DNA of 35,968 nt from Chloroflexota bacterium (GTDB lineage: Bacteria > Chloroflexota > Dehalococcoidia > Lucifugimonadales > Australimonadaceae): assembly GCA_022561455.1 (NCBI GenBank), contig JADFRC010000005.1, positions 1-35,968 on the forward strand. The letters are read 5' to 3'. Position numbers and translations under genes: made by a program. Below are positions 2,728 through 31,956 of the stretch, piece by piece; the first letter of the stretch is position 1; each line of letters opens with the position of its first letter. Below the pieces are notes generated by a model that was not told the origin of the DNA, made no database searches, and saw only the letters and a program-made list of their open reading frames with translations.

Positions 2728-4018
2728 CTACCGCGCGGGCTCCAGCACCTGCTGGCCGTCCATGTACGGCACCAGCACCTCCGGCAGGCGCACGGTGCCG
2801 TCGCGCTGCTGGTTGGTCTCCAGCAGCGCGATGATGACGCGCGGTAGCGCGAGGCCGGAGCCATTGAGCGTATGGACGTACTCCGGCCGCCCTTGGGGCT
2901 CGCGCCGGAACCGGATGTTCGCCCGGCGAGCCTGAAAATCGGTGCAGTTGGAGCAGGAGCTTACTTCGAGCCACTCCTCCGAGGCCGGCGACCAGACCTC
3001 CACGTCGTAGGTCTTGGCCGACTGGAAACCGACGTCGCCGCTGCACAGCTCCAGGATCCGGAACGGCAGGCCAAGGCCCCGGGCAACGTCCGACGCGTGC
3101 TCCACGATCTGCTCCAGCACCGCCGCCGACTGCTCCGGCTCGACGAGCTGGAACATCTCCACCTTGTCGAACTGGTGCAGCCGCTTGAGCCCGCGCACCT
3201 GCGTGCCGGCCGCCGCCTTCTCGCGGCGGAAGCACGGCGTGTGGGCCATGTAGCGCAGCGGCAGCGTGCCGGGCGCGAGTATCTCGTCGCGGTGGAGGCC
3301 CGTCAGCGGCACCTCCGCCGTCGGGATCAGCCACAGGTCGTCCTCATCGTCGTGGTACAGGTTGTCCGCGAACTTGGGGAGGTTGCCGCTGCCCTCCATC
3401 GTCTCGCGCAGCACGAGATAGGGGACGCCGCGCTCCGCGTAGCCGTGCCGCTGCCGGTGCATGTCGAGCATCCACGCGATGAGCGCGCGCTGGAGCCGGG
3501 CCCCCGCCTCGCCGAGCACGGAGAACATACGCCCGGAGAGCTTCGACCCACGCTCGAAGTCGGTGATGCCAAGCTCCTCCGACAGCTCCCAGTGCGGCTT
3601 GAGCGCGAAGTCGTAGCTCTTTGAGCTTCGGGGCTCGCCCTCCTGGCGCGTGACCGCGTTGGCGCTCTCGTCGTCGCCGTCCGGCACGTCGTCGAGCAGG
3701 ATGTTCGGCACCGTGAGCAGCAGCGCGCGGAGCTTCGCGTCGGCGTCGCGCTCGGCCGCCTCGATGCGCTTGATGCGCTCCCCGGCCTCACGGCCGGCCT
3801 TGCGCTGCCCCTCCGCCACCGCCTTGTCTCCCGCTTTCATCGCCTCGCCCACGGACTTGCTGTTCCGGTTCACCTCCGCGCGTAGCCCGTCGACCTCGGC
3901 CACGAGCGCGCGCCGGTCCGCATCGAGGTGCGCCAGCTCGTCGACGACGCCCGGGTCCTCGCGCCGGCGCTCGAGCGAGCGGCGGACGACCTCCGGCTCG
4001 CGGCGCACGGTCTCGATG

Positions 4019-5613: not shown

Positions 5614-6096
5614 CTAGCGGACGGAGACGACCTTGATCTTCTGGTTCCCGGCGGGCACGGTGAACTCGACGACATCTCCGGCCTTCTTGCCCAGCAGTGC
5701 GCTCCCAAGGGGCGACTCGTTGGAGATGCGCCCCTCATCGGGCGCGGCCTCCGCACTCCCGACGATAGTGTAGGTGTCCGATCGCTTGCTGGCGACGGCT
5801 TGCACCTTCACGATCGAGCCGACCTCGACGACCGCGGACCTGGCGCCCCGCCGGCGCCGGTGGTCCGGGATGATGACCGCATCGTGGATCATCGCCTCCA
5901 GCTCCTGGATGCGGCCCTCCACGAAGGCCTGCTCGTTCTTCGCCTCTCCGTACTCGGCATTGTCGAGCTCGCCGACCTCTTTCGCCTCCTGGATGCGGGC
6001 CGCCGCCTCATGGCGGCGGACGCTGCGAAGCTGCTCGAGCTCCCCCTCGAGCTCGCGCAGGCCATCCGTCGTGAGATACGTTCTTCCAGACGTCAT
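5614..6096 (-). CDS. greA: Transcription elongation factor GreA
   Basis: Gre factors enter the RNA polymerase secondary channel and stimulate cleavage of backtracked RNA. The protein is 160 aa, the normal size, with an N-terminal antiparallel coiled coil and a C-terminal FKBP-like domain ending in ESPLGSALLGKKAGDVVEFTVPAG. The coiled-coil tip reads KEVGELDNAEYGEAKNEQ (residues 39-56). The usual tip is GDLxENAEY, where the D and the E position the catalytic magnesium. Here the loop is one residue shorter and offers E43 and D45 instead. ATG at 6096 has GAGGA upstream. It is the first gene of the greA-lysS-serS-M16 run, and its promoter is visible at 6190-6218. Confidence 0.93.
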   Translation of the reverse strand: MTSGRTYLTTDGLRELEGELEQLRSVRRHEAAARIQEAKEVGELDNAEYGEAKNEQAFVEGRIQELEAMIHDAVIIPDHRRRRGARSAVVEVGSIVKVQAVASKRSDTYTIVGSAEAAPDEGRISNESPLGSALLGKKAGDVVEFTVPAGNQKIKVVSVR

Positions 6097-6189
6097 CGTT
6101 CGTTCCTCGAAGCAGGCCGATATCAGGGCAAAGGAAAGACCGAGTCCCCCTTGGAGCCCCCGTATCGGGCGAGTCCCCGGCCGCGCGGG

Positions 6190-6218
6190 ATTCTACGCGC
6201 GCCCCGGCGCGATAGCAA
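6190..6218 (-). promoter_or_regulatory. Sigma70-type promoter of the greA operon
   Basis: On the minus strand TTGCTA (6213-6218) and TAGAAT (6190-6195) are separated by exactly 17 bases. The expected start near 6183 leaves a leader of about 90 bases before greA. The -35 box lies only about 15 bases from the left end of cassette A, so the insertion stopped just short of destroying the promoter. Confidence 0.7.
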
Positions 6219-6232
6219 CAGCCCGCGCCGGT

Positions 6233-6251
6233 CGGTAGTGTCCTAGTTTGA
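6233..6251 (+). repeat. Left terminal inverted repeat of cassette A
   Basis: The sequence CGGTAGTGTCCTAGTTTGA is the exact reverse complement of 8071-8089. The outermost C/G pair may belong to the target duplication, which would make the true terminal repeat 18 bases beginning GGTAGTG. Confidence 0.85.
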
Positions 6252-6258
6252 CCGACGG

Positions 6259-6462
6259 CTAAGGCGTGCGCGATGCCATGAAGAGAGCGAACCCTGACAC
6301 GCTAGCAACAAATGCCACGGACGCCCACATGCCAACCGATGTCCAGGCGTTGCTCATCGCCATTAATCCGACCACAGATCCGACAGGGATCACTCCCCAA
6401 GCGATGACGAGGTGCCAGAACTTCGGTTTCTCATAGCGGCGGCGGCGTCTTGGTAACCTCAC
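6259..6462 (-). CDS. Small two-helix membrane protein, unknown function
   Basis: This is a 67-aa protein I do not recognise. After a basic N-terminus (residues 2-10 almost all Arg/Lys) come two hydrophobic segments, about residues 17-37 and 43-63, so it is probably a small inner-membrane protein with its N-terminus inside. The GTG start at 6462 follows the restored stop of the small gene upstream by 4 bases. It is the last gene of the leftward cargo of cassette A and ends only 8 bases from the terminal repeat. The hydrophobic pattern and close packing support a real gene; a chance reading frame is possible. Confidence 0.5.
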   Translation of the reverse strand: MRLPRRRRRYEKPKFWHLVIAWGVIPVGSVVGLMAMSNAWTSVGMWASVAFVASVSGFALFMASRTP

Positions 6463-6466
6463 GCGA

Positions 6467-6758
6467 TCATCCCCGCTGTTCCTGGACGGTAGCGGCGCGC
6501 ACCGCTGCCTCTGGTGAGTCTACTTGTCCTTGGTGCAGCACGGCCACGAACCGGCGCTTCTCGCCAGCCGTAGCGTGCGACCAGGCGTAGCAGCGGGTCG
6601 CGGTGGGGTGGACCTATCAGATCGAACACGTGGACCTCGCCATCCCAGACCGTCAGGCCCTCAAACGCCTCGTGGACGGGAACGGCAGCGACCCAAACTG
6701 AGTCGCAGCCATGTAGGTCCTGTATCGCTTGGCGCAGCGAGGTTAAATCCTCAGGCAT
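6467..6758 (-). pseudogene. Small conserved hypothetical protein, broken by a one-base frameshift
   Basis: Read from ATG at 6758 the frame gives a plausible soluble protein up to VWDGEVHVFDLIG (about residue 49), then degenerates. Removing one G of the pair at 6610-6611 restores a continuous 96-residue protein that goes on HPTATRCYAWSHATAGEKRR and ends ATVQEQRG with TGA at 6467. From memory this matches a family of about 90-residue proteins with HPxAxRxYAWSH followed by a 'VAVLH...SPxAAVRAA' end; its function is unknown to me. The start overlaps the P63C stop by 8 bases. The break may be a real recent mutation or a sequencing/assembly error. Confidence 0.7.
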
Positions 6759-7746
6759 CCTCTTCCTCGTCGTCTTCGAACCCCAGGTCTAGTCGCCCTT
6801 GGGGGTCTCTTGGCCCAAAGGCGCGCTTGAAGAGGCGGTCGAACGTCGTCCAACTATTCGAGACGCGCATCAGTGTCATCACTGAAGCCAGTTGTCGACC
6901 TAGATGCTCGTTGCCGATATCAGTTAGGTGCTGGTGGAGGGTGTGCTTGCGATGCCCCGTCTCGGTCAGGGGCTCCAACCGCTTCAACTCATCGAGAACG
7001 CTCGGTGCAAGCGGCTCGTAGACAAGTTGGTTCGTAATCTTCCCGACAATCTTGGGCCGCTTCACCGATGGGGGGTTGTACGTCCAGCCACGAAGCCTGA
7101 AAAGCTCTTCGTAGAACTCATCGGGGAACCGTTTGGTCCAGGGCATCAGGGCAGGGGCAATGTAGGCCTCAAGGATGCGGTGGAGCTCGTCCCGGTCCCG
7201 GTCTCGAACATATCCTGTCGCGTCATCCACCAAAGCACTGAGGGCGACCCCGACCAACGCGTCCCGAAGGACTTCTGCTTGGAACGCCATGCGCTCCTGC
7301 TGTGTCCCAAGGATGCCAGCGTGTCCGGCATCTATCCAGACCTTGCAAATCTCACCGAGCAGCTCCGCGCGGATGCCGTAGCTCCTTGCGCCGCGGAGTC
7401 CCCTGTAAACGATAGGATCGGATAGCTGAACAAGGAGAGTCGATGGAATGAATGGGATCAGATTCTTCGCAGAAAGGAACAAGGGCAGGGTTGGGCCGGT
7501 TGCGCCTTGACGCAACCTATACCACGACGGGCTGCCTCGCCCGGTCTTGCCAAATACCCTCGCGACGCCCCGCTCTGACAACACCCTGAGAGGGAACTGC
7601 CTGCCTTGGGGTTCAAGGACGGCACAGGGGATGACCAAGTCTCCGATGACCAAATCTCCCGTATGCGTCGCCCTAGGTATCTGCTGGACATCTTCGGTTG
7701 CAGACTGAGAAGCCATATCATCTCCACTATGCACCGGTTCATCCAT
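6751..7746 (-). CDS. P63C-domain protein (cargo of cassette A)
   Basis: The 331-aa protein opens with THTGDLVIGDLVIPCAVLE and an early VLSERGVARVFG segment, and its second half carries the P63C-type stretch from KRFPDEFYEELFRLRGW to ITNQLVYEPLAPSVLDELK. P63C proteins are widespread in phages and mobile elements; their biochemical role is not established. The C-terminus is acidic (FEDDEEEDA). An alternative start is ATG at 7716, which has a better GGAG upstream and removes ten residues. The gene leads the leftward cargo operon and overlaps the next gene by 8 bases. Family assignment is from recalled motif resemblance. Confidence 0.75.
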   Translation of the reverse strand: MDEPVHSGDDMASQSATEDVQQIPRATHTGDLVIGDLVIPCAVLEPQGRQFPLRVLSERGVARVFGKTGRGSPSWYRLRQGATGPTLPLFLSAKNLIPFIPSTLLVQLSDPIVYRGLRGARSYGIRAELLGEICKVWIDAGHAGILGTQQERMAFQAEVLRDALVGVALSALVDDATGYVRDRDRDELHRILEAYIAPALMPWTKRFPDEFYEELFRLRGWTYNPPSVKRPKIVGKITNQLVYEPLAPSVLDELKRLEPLTETGHRKHTLHQHLTDIGNEHLGRQLASVMTLMRVSNSWTTFDRLFKRAFGPRDPQGRLDLGFEDDEEEDA

Positions 7747-7890
7747 GGGTGGTATAGCCGAACATAGGCAAGTTATCTACAGTCCGGCCTCTTTCCTGAA
7801 GGAGAATGGTATACGGCATCAGTCAGTGGTGTCAATCACTCTGCCACCGTCATCCTTTAGAAAGCCGGTGATAGTGCCGTGTTTCTCTTG
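7747..7890. other. Cassette A spacer between P63C gene and transposase fragment
   Basis: About 140 bases of comparatively AT-rich sequence hold the presumed promoter of the leftward cargo genes and the junction where cargo replaced the body of the transposase. I see no convincing gene in it. Confidence 0.4.
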
Positions 7891-8079
7891 ACGGCAAGGG
7901 TCCGGCTCACGAACGGGTTCAGCAAGAAGGTGGAGACCTTGCGTGCAGCGGTCGCGTTGCACTTCTTCGCCCACAACCTCGTGAGGCGTCACCACACGCT
8001 GCACATGACCCCTGCGATGGCCGCTGGCATCACTCCGCGCCGGTGGACGGTCGCCGATCTCGTCTGGCTCTCAAACTAG
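7879..8079 (+). pseudogene. Transposase, C-terminal fragment (IS1-like)
   Basis: The last 66 codons of a transposase remain. RLTNGFSKKVE, ALHFFAHNLVRRHHTLHMTPAMAAG and the end RWTVADLVWLSN match the C-terminus of the DDE transposases whose ends read 'RLTNAFSKKxEN...MHYNFVRIHxTLRVTPAMAAG'. The catalytic N-terminal two thirds are absent, and homology fades upstream of about base 7890, so the fragment cannot be active. The stop codon lies within the right terminal repeat. I place it in the IS1-like group with moderate certainty. Confidence 0.8.
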
Positions 8080-26274: not shown

Positions 26275-27114
26275 ATGGTGTATCGCGAAGACGACTCAGT
26301 CAGACTGCGCAAGGAGCGGACGAGAGAGGCCATCGGCCTCGCCATGGACGGCCGCTGGAAAGAGGCGGCCGCCGTCAACCGGGAGCTCACCGAGGCGTCG
26401 CCCACCGACGTCGACGCGTGGAACCGCCTCGGCAAGGCGCTGCTGGAGTTCGGCGACGCCAAGGGCGCGGCCAAAGCGTTCAAAGGCGCCGTCGCGATCG
26501 ACCCGGCCAACGCCATCGCCCACAAGAACCTCGAGCGGCTCGCCACGCTCCCCAAGAAGGGGCGCGCCGCGAAGCGCGTCGCCACGCCGCTCGCCGCGCA
26601 CCGCTTCTTCATCAACGACGGCTCGAAGACGGCGCACGTGGCGCTCACGGGCTGCGCGCAGGGCAAGGACCGCGTCTTCGTCTCGCCCGGCGCGCCGGTG
26701 CGACTCGAGCGGCGGGGCGACGCGCTGGCCGTCCACACGGAGGACGGCGACCGCCTGGGCATGGTCCCCGCGAAGCTCGGGCGCCGGCTCAGCCGCCTCA
26801 TGGACGGCGGGAACGAGTACCAGGGCGCCGTGGCCAGCACCGCCGGCGGCACGATCCGGGTCGTGCTCCACGAGACCTTCCAGCACCCCTCTCTGCGCGC
26901 GACGGTCTCCTTCCCCGCCTCGGCGGTGGCCACGACCGCCGATCCGGCCGACGCGCCCGTCAGCGCGCCGGTGCTGGACATGGCGCAGTGGGCTGAGGAC
27001 GACCCGGAGCGCAGCGCCAAGATGACCGCCGTCGGCGCCGTGCTCGACGGTGGCATGCGGGACGACGCAAGCCTCCCGGACGTGCCCGAGGAGGCGTCGG
27101 GTCAGCCGGACTGA
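26275..27114 (+). CDS. TPR protein with HIRAN-like C-terminal region
   Basis: This 279-aa protein has two TPR-like helical hairpins at about residues 15-85 (the second reads AWNRLGKALLEFGDAKGAAKAFKGAVAIDP). A middle region resembles a HIRAN-type beta domain: DALAVHTEDGDRLGMVPAKLGRRLSRLMDGG. The tail is acidic and probably disordered. HIRAN domains are often found with DNA-processing proteins, but here the resemblance is only by eye. I prefer ATG at 26275 over GTG at 26269 because of the spacing to GGAG. Its end overlaps the end of the convergent Fe-S oxidoreductase gene by 13 bases. Confidence 0.8.
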   Translation: MVYREDDSVRLRKERTREAIGLAMDGRWKEAAAVNRELTEASPTDVDAWNRLGKALLEFGDAKGAAKAFKGAVAIDPANAIAHKNLERLATLPKKGRAAKRVATPLAAHRFFINDGSKTAHVALTGCAQGKDRVFVSPGAPVRLERRGDALAVHTEDGDRLGMVPAKLGRRLSRLMDGGNEYQGAVASTAGGTIRVVLHETFQHPSLRATVSFPASAVATTADPADAPVSAPVLDMAQWAEDDPERSAKMTAVGAVLDGGMRDDASLPDVPEEASGQPD

Positions 27115-29204
27115 GCCCCATCGAGGCTCTCAGCGAGCAGCTCGAGCAGGTCTTTCGCCTTCTTGGTGTCCCCCGCGCCCTTGGCGCCGATCCCCTCCTC
27201 CATCATCTGGAGACAGAAGGGACAAGACACCCCAACGATGTCGGCGCCCGTCTCGAGGAAGTGGTCCGTCCGGATGTGGTTGACCCTGGTGCCCTCCTCC
27301 TCCATCCACATGCGCCCACCGCCGGCGCCGCAGCAGAACCCGCGCTCGCGGCACCGGTCCTCGCCCATCTCGACGAGCGTGAGCCCCGGGATCGCTGCGG
27401 CGATCTCCCGCGGCGGGTCGTAGATCCCGTTGTGCCGCCCCAGGTAGCACGAGTCGTGGTAGGCGACCGTGGCCTCGATGCGGGCGACCGGCTTGATGCG
27501 GCCGTCGCGCACGAGCTCCGCGACGTACTCGGTGTAGTGCAGCACCTCGTACTCCCCCCCGAGCTGCGGGTACTCGTTCTTCATCGTGTTGAAGCAGTGC
27601 GGGCAGAGCGTGAGTATCTTCTTCACGCCGTAGCCGTTCAGCGTGGCTATGTTCTGCTCCGCCAGCATCGAGTAGACGTACTCGTTGCCCATGCGCCGGG
27701 CGGGGTCGCCCGTGCACACTTCCTCGTTGCCCAGCACGCGGTAGCGCACGCCAGCGCGCTTGAGCACTGCGGCCATCGCGCGCACGGCGGCCTGGTTGCG
27801 CACATTCAGCGCGCTCGTGCACCCCACCCACAACAGCACCTCGTGCTCCGGGTCGTCCGCCATCGTCACGGCGCCCGTGCCCTCCATCCAGTCCGTGCGC
27901 GTCGCGGAAGTGCCGCGCCAGGGGTGGGCGCGCTGCTCCATCGACGTCAAGGCGTCCATCGCCGTCTCCGGCACGGCCGCCTCCTCCATCGTCAGGAAGC
28001 GGCGCATGTCGACGATCGTGTCGATGTGCTCGACGCCCGCCGGGCAGGCCTCCTCGCACGCGCCGCAGGTCGTGCACGCCCACAGCGCCTCCGGCGTCAC
28101 GAAGTCGTGGACGAGCGACCGCTCCGGGTCCGCCGCCTGCTCGCCATCGCGCAGGGCGAGGAGCGCCGGCGCGCGCTGCTCCATGTACGCCTTGGCGTCC
28201 TGGATGACCTTCCGTGGCGAGAGCGGCTTGCCGCTGGCGAACGCCGGGCACTGGTCCTGGCAGCGCCCGCAGTTCGTGCAGGCGTCGAGGTCCAGCAGCT
28301 GCTTCGTCGTGAGAGACGTCAGATCGCGGGCGCCGAAGCTCTCCAGCTCCTCGAGCGCGCCCATCGGCCGCAGCGCCCCCTTCGGCCGCACGACCGAGGT
28401 GCGCATGAGCAGGTTCAGCGGGCTCACGAAGATGTGCATCAGCGGACCGAAGCGCACCGCCGCATAGACGAACGCCGCCGACATCAGCGCGGCGTGCGCC
28501 CACCACAGCACGAAGTGGCTCACCTCCATCGCGTAGACCGTCATGCCCGTCGCGCGGACTCCGGCCGCGATGGCGTAGCTGACCGGCGACCACACCGCCC
28601 ACTCCGGCCGGTAAAGCGCGCTTGAGGGCTCCATCTCCGTCGCCGCCATCCGCAGCGACTGGAGCACGAAGCCGGAGAGCGCCATCGCCAGCAGCACCCA
28701 GAGCAGCACGCCGTTCTCCAGCATCGTGTTGAGGCGCGGGGGGCGGAGCACGTAGCGGCGGTAGGCCGCGAGCCCGATACCGGCGATGAGCATCAGCCCG
28801 CCGAGGTCCCATACGAGCTCGAGCTGCACGCCGATCGCGGCCGTGGGGAACCGCCAGCCCACGTACCGCTCGAGGTTGAACTCGACCGCCGCGAGCGTCG
28901 TCGCGACCAACAGCACGGCGATGCCCCAGAAGATCAGGAAGTGCATCAGGCCGGGGTAGCGCTCGTGGCGCAGGAACCGGCGGTGCGCGAAGGAGTCGAC
29001 CGCCAGCGTCCGCAGGCCTGCAAGCAACCGCGGGCCCCACGGCCCGACGTCTGGATTGGGCGCGCCGAGGCGCCAGATGCGCGAGCGCCGGTAGAGCGCC
29101 CACGCGACCGCCGCGATCGCGACGACGGCGCTCAGGTAGACGATGGCGCCCAGCGGGTAGCCGATATTCCAGAAGTCGAGACGTCCGTTGAGGTCGGGGG
29201 GCAA
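27102..29204 (-). CDS. Membrane-bound Fe-S oxidoreductase (NarI-like + HdrD-like fusion)
   Basis: This 700-aa protein begins with about six hydrophobic helices resembling the NarI/cytochrome b domain (about residues 15-260, with possible haem-ligand histidines). Two 4Fe-4S motifs follow, CTNCGRCQDQCP (about 311) and CTTCGACEEACP (about 375), then two cysteine-rich CCG domains, including CPHCFNT, FCCGAGGGRMW and SCPFCLQ. This layout matches the DUF224 membrane oxidoreductases proposed to pass electrons from electron-transfer flavoprotein to menaquinone. No etfAB is in the window, so the partner is inferred. The tail overlaps the TPR gene by 13 bases. Confidence 0.9.
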   Translation of the reverse strand: MPPDLNGRLDFWNIGYPLGAIVYLSAVVAIAAVAWALYRRSRIWRLGAPNPDVGPWGPRLLAGLRTLAVDSFAHRRFLRHERYPGLMHFLIFWGIAVLLVATTLAAVEFNLERYVGWRFPTAAIGVQLELVWDLGGLMLIAGIGLAAYRRYVLRPPRLNTMLENGVLLWVLLAMALSGFVLQSLRMAATEMEPSSALYRPEWAVWSPVSYAIAAGVRATGMTVYAMEVSHFVLWWAHAALMSAAFVYAAVRFGPLMHIFVSPLNLLMRTSVVRPKGALRPMGALEELESFGARDLTSLTTKQLLDLDACTNCGRCQDQCPAFASGKPLSPRKVIQDAKAYMEQRAPALLALRDGEQAADPERSLVHDFVTPEALWACTTCGACEEACPAGVEHIDTIVDMRRFLTMEEAAVPETAMDALTSMEQRAHPWRGTSATRTDWMEGTGAVTMADDPEHEVLLWVGCTSALNVRNQAAVRAMAAVLKRAGVRYRVLGNEEVCTGDPARRMGNEYVYSMLAEQNIATLNGYGVKKILTLCPHCFNTMKNEYPQLGGEYEVLHYTEYVAELVRDGRIKPVARIEATVAYHDSCYLGRHNGIYDPPREIAAAIPGLTLVEMGEDRCRERGFCCGAGGGRMWMEEEGTRVNHIRTDHFLETGADIVGVSCPFCLQMMEEGIGAKGAGDTKKAKDLLELLAESLDGAQSG

Positions 29205-29281
29205 GGCGGGCTCCGTGCTCAGGCCATCGCGGCCCGGCGCCGGGGCAGTGTAGCATCACGCTGGCGCGCTCCAGCTACCCG

Positions 29282-29340
29282 CCCACCATCGCCGTGACCG
29301 TCGAGCCGATGTCGGCGGGCGCCGGTTATGATGTGGCAGC
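29282..29340 (-). repeat. Displaced copy of the sucD 3' end (att-like direct repeat, left)
   Basis: 59 bases match 31085-31142, the last codons of sucD, with two substitutions and one extra T. The copy is in the same orientation as sucD and even has its own TAG stop at 29275-29277. The extra T breaks the sucD frame, so the copy is decaying. It marks the left edge of cassette B. Confidence 0.85.
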
Positions 29341-29415: not shown

Positions 29416-30021
29416 GTGCCAGTGAAACCGGCCGCACTAACCATCGGCCACTCGAATCACTCACTCGGTGACTTCCTCACCCTCCTGAAGAAGCACCGGG
29501 CTGACCTCCTCGTGGATGTGCGGTCGCATCCTCGTTCTAAGTACGCTAACCAATTCGATTCTCCTGGCCTTGGTGAGGCTCTGGAACAAGCGGGAATCCG
29601 CTACCTCTACCTGGGCGACGAGCTAGGAGGGCGACCGCGGGATTCCCACTATTACGATTCAGCTGGCTACGTCCTGTATGGCAAGCTGGCGCAATCGGAC
29701 GATTTCTTCCGCGGGCTTGTTCGACTCCGAGGCGAGCTGCCACGCCACCGCGTTGCAATCATGTGCAGCGAGGAAGATCCAACTAACTGTCACCGCCGAC
29801 TGCTCGTTGGGCGTGTGCTGGCCGAACGAGGCCATTCGGTTAACCACATTCGTGGGGATGGACGACTGCAAAGTGAGCAGGAAATCGCTCAATCGGAGCG
29901 CGGAGGTCAGTCAGCACAGATGAGTCTGCTTCAACCGGATGAGGAGGAGTCGTGGCGGTCCGCACGGCCTATTCGATTGGGTTCACCAAGCACAGCGCCC
30001 GGGACTTTTTCGAGTCCCTAA
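29416..30021 (+). CDS. DUF488 family protein, first copy
   Basis: This 201-aa DUF488 protein has the typical opening ALTIGHSNHSLGDFLTLLKKH, then LLVDVRSHPRSKY, YLYLGDELGGRP and CSEEDPTNCHRRLLVGRVL. The CSExxxxxCHR pair of cysteines and the DVRSxPxS loop are the likely active-site residues. The biochemical activity of DUF488 is not established; comparative work has linked it to nucleotide-modification contexts. I chose GTG at 29416 (VPVKPAALTIGH); an upstream GTG at 29374 adds 14 basic residues. The gene overlaps the second DUF488 gene by 70 bases, unusually far. Confidence 0.88.
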   Translation: MPVKPAALTIGHSNHSLGDFLTLLKKHRADLLVDVRSHPRSKYANQFDSPGLGEALEQAGIRYLYLGDELGGRPRDSHYYDSAGYVLYGKLAQSDDFFRGLVRLRGELPRHRVAIMCSEEDPTNCHRRLLVGRVLAERGHSVNHIRGDGRLQSEQEIAQSERGGQSAQMSLLQPDEEESWRSARPIRLGSPSTAPGTFSSP

Positions 30022-30401
30022 ACCGCGCAGGCATCGAGCGCCTCGTCGACGTGAGGCTCAACAACGTGTCCCAGCTCGCGGGGTTCGCGAAGCGCGATGA
30101 CCTCGCGTACTTCCTCGAATTAATCTGCGGTGTGGAGTACATGCACGAACCTCTCTTGGCTCCAACCGCCGAGTTGTTGGACGCATACCGCAAGCGTCGC
30201 ATTACGTGGGAAACGTACGAGCGTAGGTTCAGTGACCTGATTCGCGAGCGGAGCATCGGAGACATGTTCGCGCCGGAGTTCTTCGATCGCCGCACCGTCC
30301 TGCTCTGTAGCGAGCACGCTCCTGACCAGTGCCATCGGCGCCTTGTGCTTGAATACTTGCAGCGTGTATGGGAGGGAGACCTGGTGATCAAGCACCTCTA
30401 A
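29952..30401 (+). CDS. DUF488 family protein, second copy
   Basis: This 149-aa protein shares the DUF488 pattern with its neighbour but is diverged and shorter: AYSIGFTKHSARDFFESL, RLVDVRLNNVSQLAGFAKRD, then CSEHAPDQCHRRLVLEYL. The second variant, with LNNVSQLAGF in place of SxPxS, is a recognisable DUF488 subgroup. GTG at 29952 has an excellent GAGGAGGAG just upstream. Two different DUF488 paralogues side by side suggest a heteromeric enzyme or two successive steps. It ends 11 bases before the next gene. Confidence 0.88.
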   Translation: MAVRTAYSIGFTKHSARDFFESLNRAGIERLVDVRLNNVSQLAGFAKRDDLAYFLELICGVEYMHEPLLAPTAELLDAYRKRRITWETYERRFSDLIRERSIGDMFAPEFFDRRTVLLCSEHAPDQCHRRLVLEYLQRVWEGDLVIKHL

Positions 30402-30412
30402 GGGGAGGGGGC

Positions 30413-31078
30413 GTGGAAGTCGAGCTACTGTGCCTGGCAAACTCTCAGAAGTTAGGTGGGCGCTGCCTGGCGGGTTTGCGGACCGACGGCCAAGGCTGGA
30501 TTCGCCCCGTCACTAACACCCCAAGCGGCACGCTGTCGATTCGGCAGGCTAGTATCGCTGGTGCCGAGATTGCACTACTCGATGTCGTCCGCGCTGATCT
30601 GGCTAGCGCACGACCCGAGCCGCATCAGCCAGAGAATCACATCCTTGCTAGCACACCGCTGATCTTTGTTGAAAATCTCGCTCCGACAGAGGCCTTGCCT
30701 CTACTGTCGGCAGCCATTGAGCGAGGCCCGGACCTTCTGAGGGGCGCAACCGACCGCATCGCCAGGCAGAGTTTTGACGCAAGACCCACGCAACACTCAC
30801 TCTCGCTAATCGAGCCAGCGATATTGCGCTGGGTCGTGACCACCTCGTTGAGAGGAAATCCACAGGTCAGGGGCGTCTTTAGTCTTTCAGGAACCACTTA
30901 CGACTTGGTAGTGACCGATCTAGTCTGGAAAGCCCGGTTCGGTGGCCGTGACGTGGGGACTTACCCACCCGATGCAACAGGTACTAATCGCTCCAACCGG
31001 GTGCTGCTGGTCATCAGCTTGTCCGAACCCCTAAACGGCATGTGCTACAAGTTGATTGCCGGTGTAATCGTCATCTGA
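30413..31078 (+). CDS. Dual OB-type domain protein (partner of DUF488 pair)
   Basis: The 221-aa protein opens VEVELLCLANSQKLGGRCLAGL, with WIRPVTNTPSGTLS, LLDVVRADLASARPEPHQPEN and, near the end, VVTDLVWKARF. This fits the 'dual OB-containing domain' proteins that I recall beside DUF488 genes; the match is from memory. These are thought to bind nucleic acid or nucleotides. GTG at 30413 has AGGGGAGGGGG upstream and sits 11 bases after the second DUF488 gene. Its stop is 2 bases from the convergent end of sucD, at the edge of the island. Confidence 0.7.
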   Translation: MEVELLCLANSQKLGGRCLAGLRTDGQGWIRPVTNTPSGTLSIRQASIAGAEIALLDVVRADLASARPEPHQPENHILASTPLIFVENLAPTEALPLLSAAIERGPDLLRGATDRIARQSFDARPTQHSLSLIEPAILRWVVTTSLRGNPQVRGVFSLSGTTYDLVVTDLVWKARFGGRDVGTYPPDATGTNRSNRVLLVISLSEPLNGMCYKLIAGVIVI

Positions 31079-31080
31079 CC

Positions 31081-31956
31081 CTACCCCACCATCGCCGCGA
31101 CCGTCGAGCCGATGTCGGCGGGCGTCGGTATGATGTGGCAGCCGGCGTCTTGGAGCGCCGCGACCTTCGCCGAGGCGAGCGCGGCCTCGCCGGTGATGAC
31201 GGCGCCCGCGTGCCCCATGCGGCGCCCCGGCGGCGCCGTCTGGCCGACGATGAGGCTGGCCACCGGCTTGCGGACGTGCTCCTTGATGTAGGCGGCCGCC
31301 TGCTGCTCCTTCGTCCCGCCGATCTCGCCGATGAGCACGATGGCCTCGGTTCCTGGGTCGTCGTTGAACAGCTCCAGCACGTCCACGAACGTCGTGCCGG
31401 AGACCGGGTCGCCGCCGATGCCCACGCACGTCGACTGCCCGATGCCCGCCTTCGTGAGCTGGTCCACGGCCTCGTACGTCAGCGTGCCCGAGCGCGAGAC
31501 GACCCCGACCTTCCCCGGCGTGTGTATGTCGCCCGGCATGATGCCGATCTTGGCCTTGGAGCCGGGGCTGATGAGGCCGGGGCAGTTGGGGCCGATGAGC
31601 CGCGTCCCCTTGCCCTCCAGGTAGCGCATGACGAACGTCGAGTCGCGCACCGGCACGCCCTCGGTGATGCAGACCACCAGCGGCACGCCGGCGTCGGCCG
31701 ACTCCATGATCGCGTCGGCCGCGAACGGCGGCGGCACGAAGATGAGCGCGACGTTCGCGCCCGTCTCGCCGACGGCAGCTCTTACGCTGTTGAAGACAGG
31801 CACGGTGCCGCCGAAGAGCTCGCCGCCCTTGCCCGGCGTCACGCCGGCGACGACGTTCGTGCCATAGGCGGCACAGCGCTCGGCGTGAAAGCTGCCCTCG
31901 CGCCCGGTGATGCCTTGGATCAGCAGCCGCGTGTTGCCGTCGACCAGGATGCTCAT
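31081..31956 (-). CDS. sucD: Succinyl-CoA synthetase alpha subunit
   Basis: SucD binds CoA and carries the phosphohistidine of succinyl-CoA synthetase (TCA cycle, substrate-level ATP or GTP formation). At 291 aa it has the normal size. [10 protein letters not shown] (residues 15-24) is the CoA-binding loop and the phosphorylated His249 lies in [11 protein letters not shown]. The last 19 codons fall in the direct repeat that bounds cassette B, so the present C-terminus may be supplied by the incoming element. It is separated from sucC by 127 bases holding a palindromic repeat. Confidence 0.97.
31085..31142 (-). repeat. sucD 3' end, att-like direct repeat (right)
   Basis: 58 bases within sucD repeated at 29282-29340; this is the right-hand edge of cassette B. 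Confidence 0.85.

Follow-up and report, generated by a model that had tools for sequence, protein, structure and literature searches.

The window, the whole 35,968-nucleotide stretch of an Australimonadaceae (Chloroflexota) contig that was analyzed, contains three genes packed on one strand (Table 1). The first two encode DUF488 domain proteins, designated DUF488-a and DUF488-b, and overlap by 70 bp. The third follows DUF488-b after a gap of 11 bp and encodes a protein with two OB-type domains, DuOB, which covers positions 2-210 of the 210-position Pfam DuOB profile. Its GTG start at 30413 is preceded by the purine-rich ribosome site GGGGAGGGGGC, and an alternative in-frame ATG lies at 30368. 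DUF488-b has a second Pfam match, to DUF488-N3a (PF22751, 6.1e-11), which is annotated as 'Active DUF488-N3 subclade'.

Table 1. Trio genes, repeats and flanking genes, in positions of the window.
Feature	Position	Strand	Evidence and remarks
Fe-S/CCG-domain protein	27102-29204	-	CCG 3.8e-32; directly after sucD in the empty site of a congener
Left direct repeat (att-like), detached original sucD 3' end	29282-29340	-	sucD stop just beyond, 29273-29275
DUF488-a (PDC-M45B-like)	29416-30021	+	201 aa; GTG start, AAGGA upstream; Pfam PF04343 6.5e-21; PADLOC PDC-M45B 1.2e-52
DUF488-b (PDC-M45C-like)	29952-30401	+	149 aa; GTG start; Pfam PF04343 3.2e-21; PADLOC PDC-M45C 1.8e-61
DuOB protein (PDC-M45A-like)	30413-31078	+	221 aa; two OB-type domains; Pfam PF22557 1.9e-40; PADLOC PDC-M45A 3.3e-37
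sucD, succinyl-CoA ligase alpha subunit, insertion target, remains intact	31081-31956	-	Pfam CoA_binding 2.2e-25, Ligase_CoA 3.6e-24; 94-98% identity to congeners
Right direct repeat (att-like), sucD 3' end still joined to the gene	31085-31142	-	differs from the empty site of the congener just before the sucD stop

The first-pass annotation of this DNA, made from the sequence alone, had described two different DUF488 proteins with a CSExxxxxCHR cysteine pair, coupled to a dual-OB-type partner. Both parts of that description are borne out by the Pfam matches to PF04343 and PF22557 and by the packing of the genes. The motif reads CSEEDPTNCHR in DUF488-a (C117-SE-x5-C125-H-R127) and CSEHAPDQCHR in DUF488-b, both of the form CSE-x5-CHR. 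C117, E119, P122, C125, H126 and R127 were invariant among 12 DUF488-a sequences, as were C119, E121, C127, H128 and R129 among 13 DUF488-b sequences. The DUF488 proteins of the window are members of two distinct conserved subfamilies.

Insertion at the 3' end of sucD

The trio lies in an insert of about 1.8 kb between two direct repeats, which leaves room for its three ORFs only. The insert has a GC content of 0.591, compared with 0.699 and 0.700 for the flanks. GC at third codon positions (GC3) is 0.59, 0.79 and 0.63 in the trio genes and 0.95 and 0.96 in the flanking genes. Because GC and GC3 are both low relative to the flanks, the trio was judged to be a fairly recent acquisition, which agrees with the earlier view of this segment as transferred DNA. 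A second low-GC stretch (0.58-0.62) occupies window positions 6001-8000, where a P63C-domain protein is encoded at 6751-7746 on the minus strand, and is possibly another acquired segment.

The direct repeat that brackets the trio is 59 bp long with 95% identity and scores 90.6 bits. As a control, the 900-bp flanks were compared at shifted positions within the window, which gave at most 28.3 bits. The empty site is found in a congener, G001, whose sucD is followed by approximately 136 bp and then by the Fe-S gene that stands to the left of the trio in the window. The alignment of the detached repeat copy with the end of sucD in G001 continues across the stop codon into the sequence beyond, and the attached copy departs from G001 at the point given in Table 1. 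From these alignments the detached copy was identified as the original gene end, and the attached tip as sequence that arrived with the insert. Site-specific integration likewise leaves the target gene with a new tip supplied by the insert. Among 16 sampled Australimonadaceae genomes, DuOB occurs only in the window genome and in G012, being missing from 14/15 of the others. The G012 trio has the order DuOB-a-b, unlike the a-b-DuOB of the window. The repeat, the empty site and this patchy occurrence lend support to the proposal that the genes form a mobile unit, and we read the trio as a PDC-M45 cassette that has moved horizontally.

The junction next to sucD is occupied by a different insert in congener G002 (L033:5217-6556), with antisense genes that were named by eye as ArsR, SRPBCC-like and VOC-like. 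The sequence after sucD in G003 resembled that of G002, and the junction may be a hot spot.

No integrase was found among the window ORFs between the repeats, nor near the trio in the same genome, where all six integrase matches are on other contigs. A search of the window genome for a further copy of the att-like repeat found none. Since the cassette carries no integrase, we propose that it was probably inserted by an integrase acting in trans. Cis-mobilizable elements (CIMEs) have attL and attR but lack integration and transfer genes (PMC5704250). The window unit shares with them direct repeats at a gene 3' end, an empty site in a congener and the absence of an integrase. It differs in being far smaller (1.8 kb) and in holding only the trio, and no remains of a larger, decayed element were seen.

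A comparable arrangement was found in a Phycisphaerae MAG (L081), where two copies of the fumC 3' end, at 1518-1557 and 3365-3404, enclose the trio. This repeat is 40 bp long with 92.5% identity and scores 59.9 bits, compared with at most 26.5 bits in controls. It begins approximately 6-10 bp past the DuOB stop, as does the repeat in the window. No empty fumC site was found, since the fetched relatives do not have the downstream gene of L081 beside fumC. Convincing gene-end repeats were present in 2/~42 trio loci, the window and L081, and insertion between gene-end repeats was therefore rejected as a general rule. As the other loci have no convincing repeats, gene-end insertion is one way in which some copies spread.

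Four other repeats were rejected as gene-end repeats. The 71% repeat at L116 is a DuOB remnant, the C-terminus of a second DuOB upstream of the trio. The L134 repeat codes for PGLRVLDLGCG, a methyltransferase-like motif, and was taken to reflect paralogous genes. At L090 and L100 the repeats resemble intergenic repeats of a dispersed type. We hold it very improbable that at least some PDC-M45 trios are minimal, autonomous cassettes that repeatedly enter conserved metabolic genes at the 3' end without a known recombinase, with the DUF488 and DuOB proteins helping to join their own DNA.

Distribution, gene order and neighbors

DuOB was present in 45 out of 400 Chloroflexota genomes, and the full trio in 17 of the 19 genomes in which DuOB scored at least 100 bits. 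The PDC-M45C model splits the same 400-genome sample cleanly, with 37 genomes above 140 bits and the next at 73 bits. DuOB stands beside DUF488-b in 31/37 of these genomes, is absent from 5 and is off the contig in 1. Because 5/37 genomes have DUF488-b without DuOB, DUF488-b is not always dependent on the trio. A genome scan detected DuOB at 13 loci, spread over several bacterial phyla and a single archaeon, with the full trio at 11/13; the exceptions were L079, which had no DUF488-a match, and L086, with DuOB alone. The trio is also found in a Deltaproteobacteria MAG, Phycisphaerae, Bryobacterales, Prochloron, a Methanomassiliicoccales archaeon, Rhizobium and plasmids. An Armatimonadetes locus has DUF488-b and DuOB. 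The first-pass annotation would have been undone had the three families failed to occur together elsewhere; instead, co-occurrence is strong, and dozens of genomes carry the trio, more than chance would give.

The trio is known in three gene orders. A set of 49 loci, picked by DuOB or DUF488-b matches, contained all three genes in 48, a count that is no frequency given how the loci were picked. The order was a-b-DuOB in 26, DuOB-a-b in 20 and of mixed strand in 2. Protein distances, taken from pairwise identities, covary among the trio genes (Mantel r 0.57-0.75, p 0.0005). Gammaproteobacterial plasmids have the order DuOB, DUF488-b and an mSLOG-DUF4326 protein that replaces DUF488-a. Examples of this third gene are L069:8084-8686, L074:8057-8659 and L068:8155-8646, the mSLOG match being weak in L068. 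Other variants include a 527-aa DuOB fused to C-terminal NHL-type repeats (L102:9940-11520), a DuOB fused to a glyoxalase-type domain (L105), and two tandem DuOB genes per trio (L090, L091 and L039).

No DuOB carriers were found among viruses and phages. DUF488-b-like proteins turned up in the viral search only in Gordonia phages, at 33% identity. One such gene (L173:2977-3429), annotated as a HipA toxin, lies between integrase and immunity-repressor genes.

Neighboring genes were compared with known defence families. A CBASS system adjoins an Agrobacterium trio, and the scan, which also covered a near-identical Rhizobium locus, yielded two sets of CBASS matches. A type III CRISPR system adjoins an Allochromatium trio, and a NotI restriction-modification system a Klebsiella trio. 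Known defence families were nearly absent by PADLOC from 141 neighboring proteins of the Chloroflexota set, whose trios sit among housekeeping genes. A link with defence islands, which the first-pass annotation had suggested checking, is thus seen at a few proteobacterial loci and hardly at all in Chloroflexota, where a general enrichment in known islands is not supported. Any enrichment in proteobacteria is anecdotal.

DUF488-b genes without DuOB have other neighbors. On an IncC plasmid of Klebsiella such a gene adjoins a UvrA-like gene and frmR, in Acinetobacter uvrB and a formaldehyde-sensing repressor, and in Comamonas uvrB. The three solo genes lie on proteobacterial plasmids (L171:4492-4923, L174:3504-3944 and L175:3492-3923), and formaldehyde-sensing repressors are present at 2/3. 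Their PDC-M45C scores of 220-234 bits, compared with 204 bits for the window protein, make them full members of the subfamily. They are 49-52% identical to the window protein, and their loci differ from the window in having neither DuOB nor DUF488-a.

Known systems and predicted folds

All three components of PDC-M45 (A, B and C), a candidate phage-defence system in PADLOC-DB, are present in the window with matches from 1e-37 to 1e-61. PDC systems are candidates of Payne et al. 2021 that have been described as unpublished (PMC11811056). The literature search found no paper naming DuOB or PDC-M45 and no measurement of activity, DNA binding or phage protection for any PDC-M45 member. The proposal that the trio is an undescribed system therefore has to be given up, since the PADLOC models together with Pfam DUF488 and DuOB already cover its parts; the remainder of that reading stands, namely that the genes are coupled, encode two different DUF488s with a dual-OB partner and were acquired horizontally. 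The window trio adds one more copy to a listed yet unexplained candidate system. PDC-M45 is known as a listed candidate, and its insertion anatomy comes from the present analysis.

Sequence searches returned no solved structure for DUF488-a, DUF488-b or DuOB. The predicted model of DUF488-a has a pLDDT of 82. Its matches in VIA, at Z 8-9, are CbiL/diphthine-synthase-like methylases and the phosphatases laforin, KAP, SsoPTP and PRL. These are distant matches (best VIA Z 9.0, Foldseek E at least 3e-3), half of the top ones being methylases instead of phosphatases. In the model the first Cys closes the strand 113-117 and the Arg opens the helix 126-137. Because the Cys ends a strand and the Arg starts a helix, the loop appears to be placed as in cysteine phosphatases. 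DUF488-a was rejected as a canonical PTP/DSP cysteine phosphatase, as its spacing is C-x9-R and the C-x5-R loop is not present.

Burroughs and Aravind, in 2023, reportedly placed methylase- and phosphatase-type folds together with DUF488 in one rhodanese-phosphatase superfamily. They are also said to have treated DUF488 among conflict systems and to have predicted DNA-end processing. DUF488-a shares with the RapZ-C-DUF488-DUF4326 clade of this superfamily the domain and the conserved Cys and Arg between strand and helix, and its predicted model appears to match both arms, the methylases and the phosphatases.

The AlphaFold2 model of DuOB (pLDDT 92.5) gave tandem-OB matches. Foldseek placed HIN-200 domains first (top rows E 2e-4, TM 0.3-0.4; VIA Z 4.1-4.5) and RADX, CST, Teb1 and RPA lower. 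In VIA the best match was LEF-3 (Z 5.7), followed by aspartyl-tRNA synthetase, telomere-end proteins and RPA. The HIN-200 proteins (IFI16, AIM2, p202 and p204) and the RPA70 and telomere-end proteins have two consecutive OB folds per chain, as does the DuOB model. No sequence match was found between DuOB and either group, and at the level of the predicted model the structural matches (VIA Z 4-6) are a distant resemblance of fold type and no sign of kinship.

A possible role at DNA ends or lesions

The trio is best read as a module directed at DNA, which would process ends or lesions for the purpose of defence or repair. The two DUF488 proteins are related, probable cysteine enzymes and DuOB is a probable DNA-binding protein. 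DuOB would bind DNA, at ends or single-stranded stretches, by means of its two OB domains, and would bring the two DUF488 enzymes to it. The enzymes would be relatives of the rhodanese-phosphatases and may act through the first Cys, at the end of a beta strand, and the Arg of the next helix, taking a phosphate or a comparable group off a DNA end or lesion or transferring it. DNA altered in this way could then not be sealed, replicated or kept, or would be readied for repair. DUF4326 has been proposed to process terminal phosphates on ribose (Iyer et al., PMC9503650), and the replacement of DUF488-a by DUF4326 therefore fits phosphate chemistry.

For the cell, the most likely benefit would be protection from incoming DNA, and the repair of damage is a close rival. 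Defence is backed by the candidate status in PADLOC, by patchy and mobile spread and by some defence neighbors. We felt that a DNA-end or lesion module with a defence role should be put forward as a tentative first choice, somewhat short of probable.

In the repair alternative, DUF488-b and an OB partner would process damaged, blocked or crosslinked DNA ends, either in the trio or together with UvrA/UvrB paralogues. The association of full DUF488-b members with UvrA/UvrB and formaldehyde-response genes points in this direction, as does the position of Chloroflexota trios among housekeeping genes. However, the UvrA/UvrB neighbors were seen for solo b genes and not for trios, and defence is suited by the patchy distribution, by plasmid carriage and by neighbors of the CBASS, type III CRISPR and restriction-modification kinds. 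The count of 122 plasmid records is redundant. We regard a repair module as unlikely, though it deserves serious attention.

The trio could also be a conflict system based on nucleotides or NAD derivatives, with the DUF488 pair making or destroying a soluble nucleotide signal and DuOB as sensor or scaffold. The substitution of mSLOG-DUF4326 for DUF488-a in the plasmid versions would suit such a system, as SLOG and DUF4326 have been placed in NAD/ADP-ribose networks (Iyer et al., PMC9503650). We consider it improbable, since the trio includes neither a synthetase nor an effector of the nuclease or membrane type, tandem-OB folds usually belong to nucleic-acid binders, and the UvrA/UvrB link points to DNA. 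RNA 5'-triphosphatases belong to the rhodanese-phosphatase superfamily, RNGTT is a weak Foldseek match to DUF488-a and the DuOB matches include the OB folds of aspartyl- and asparaginyl-tRNA synthetases, but processing of RNA ends instead of DNA, in RNA or tRNA repair or damage, is more doubtful still, as no RNA-repair neighbors were seen at the loci examined and the DUF488-b subfamily adjoins DNA excision-repair genes.

To the listed candidate, this study adds an insertion anatomy without an integrase, the frequency of the trio and the link of DUF488-b with excision repair. This anatomy shows that 1.8 kb can be enough for a defence candidate to spread as a unit that lacks its own integrase, and searches for integrase-bearing islands would miss such units. 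The trio also offers small, testable constructs. DUF488 (domain of unknown function 488) is a common family, and the parts of the trio, namely a tandem-OB partner, a first enzyme replaceable by mSLOG-DUF4326 and a second enzyme that travels with UvrA/UvrB, narrow its likely substrate to nucleic-acid ends or lesions.
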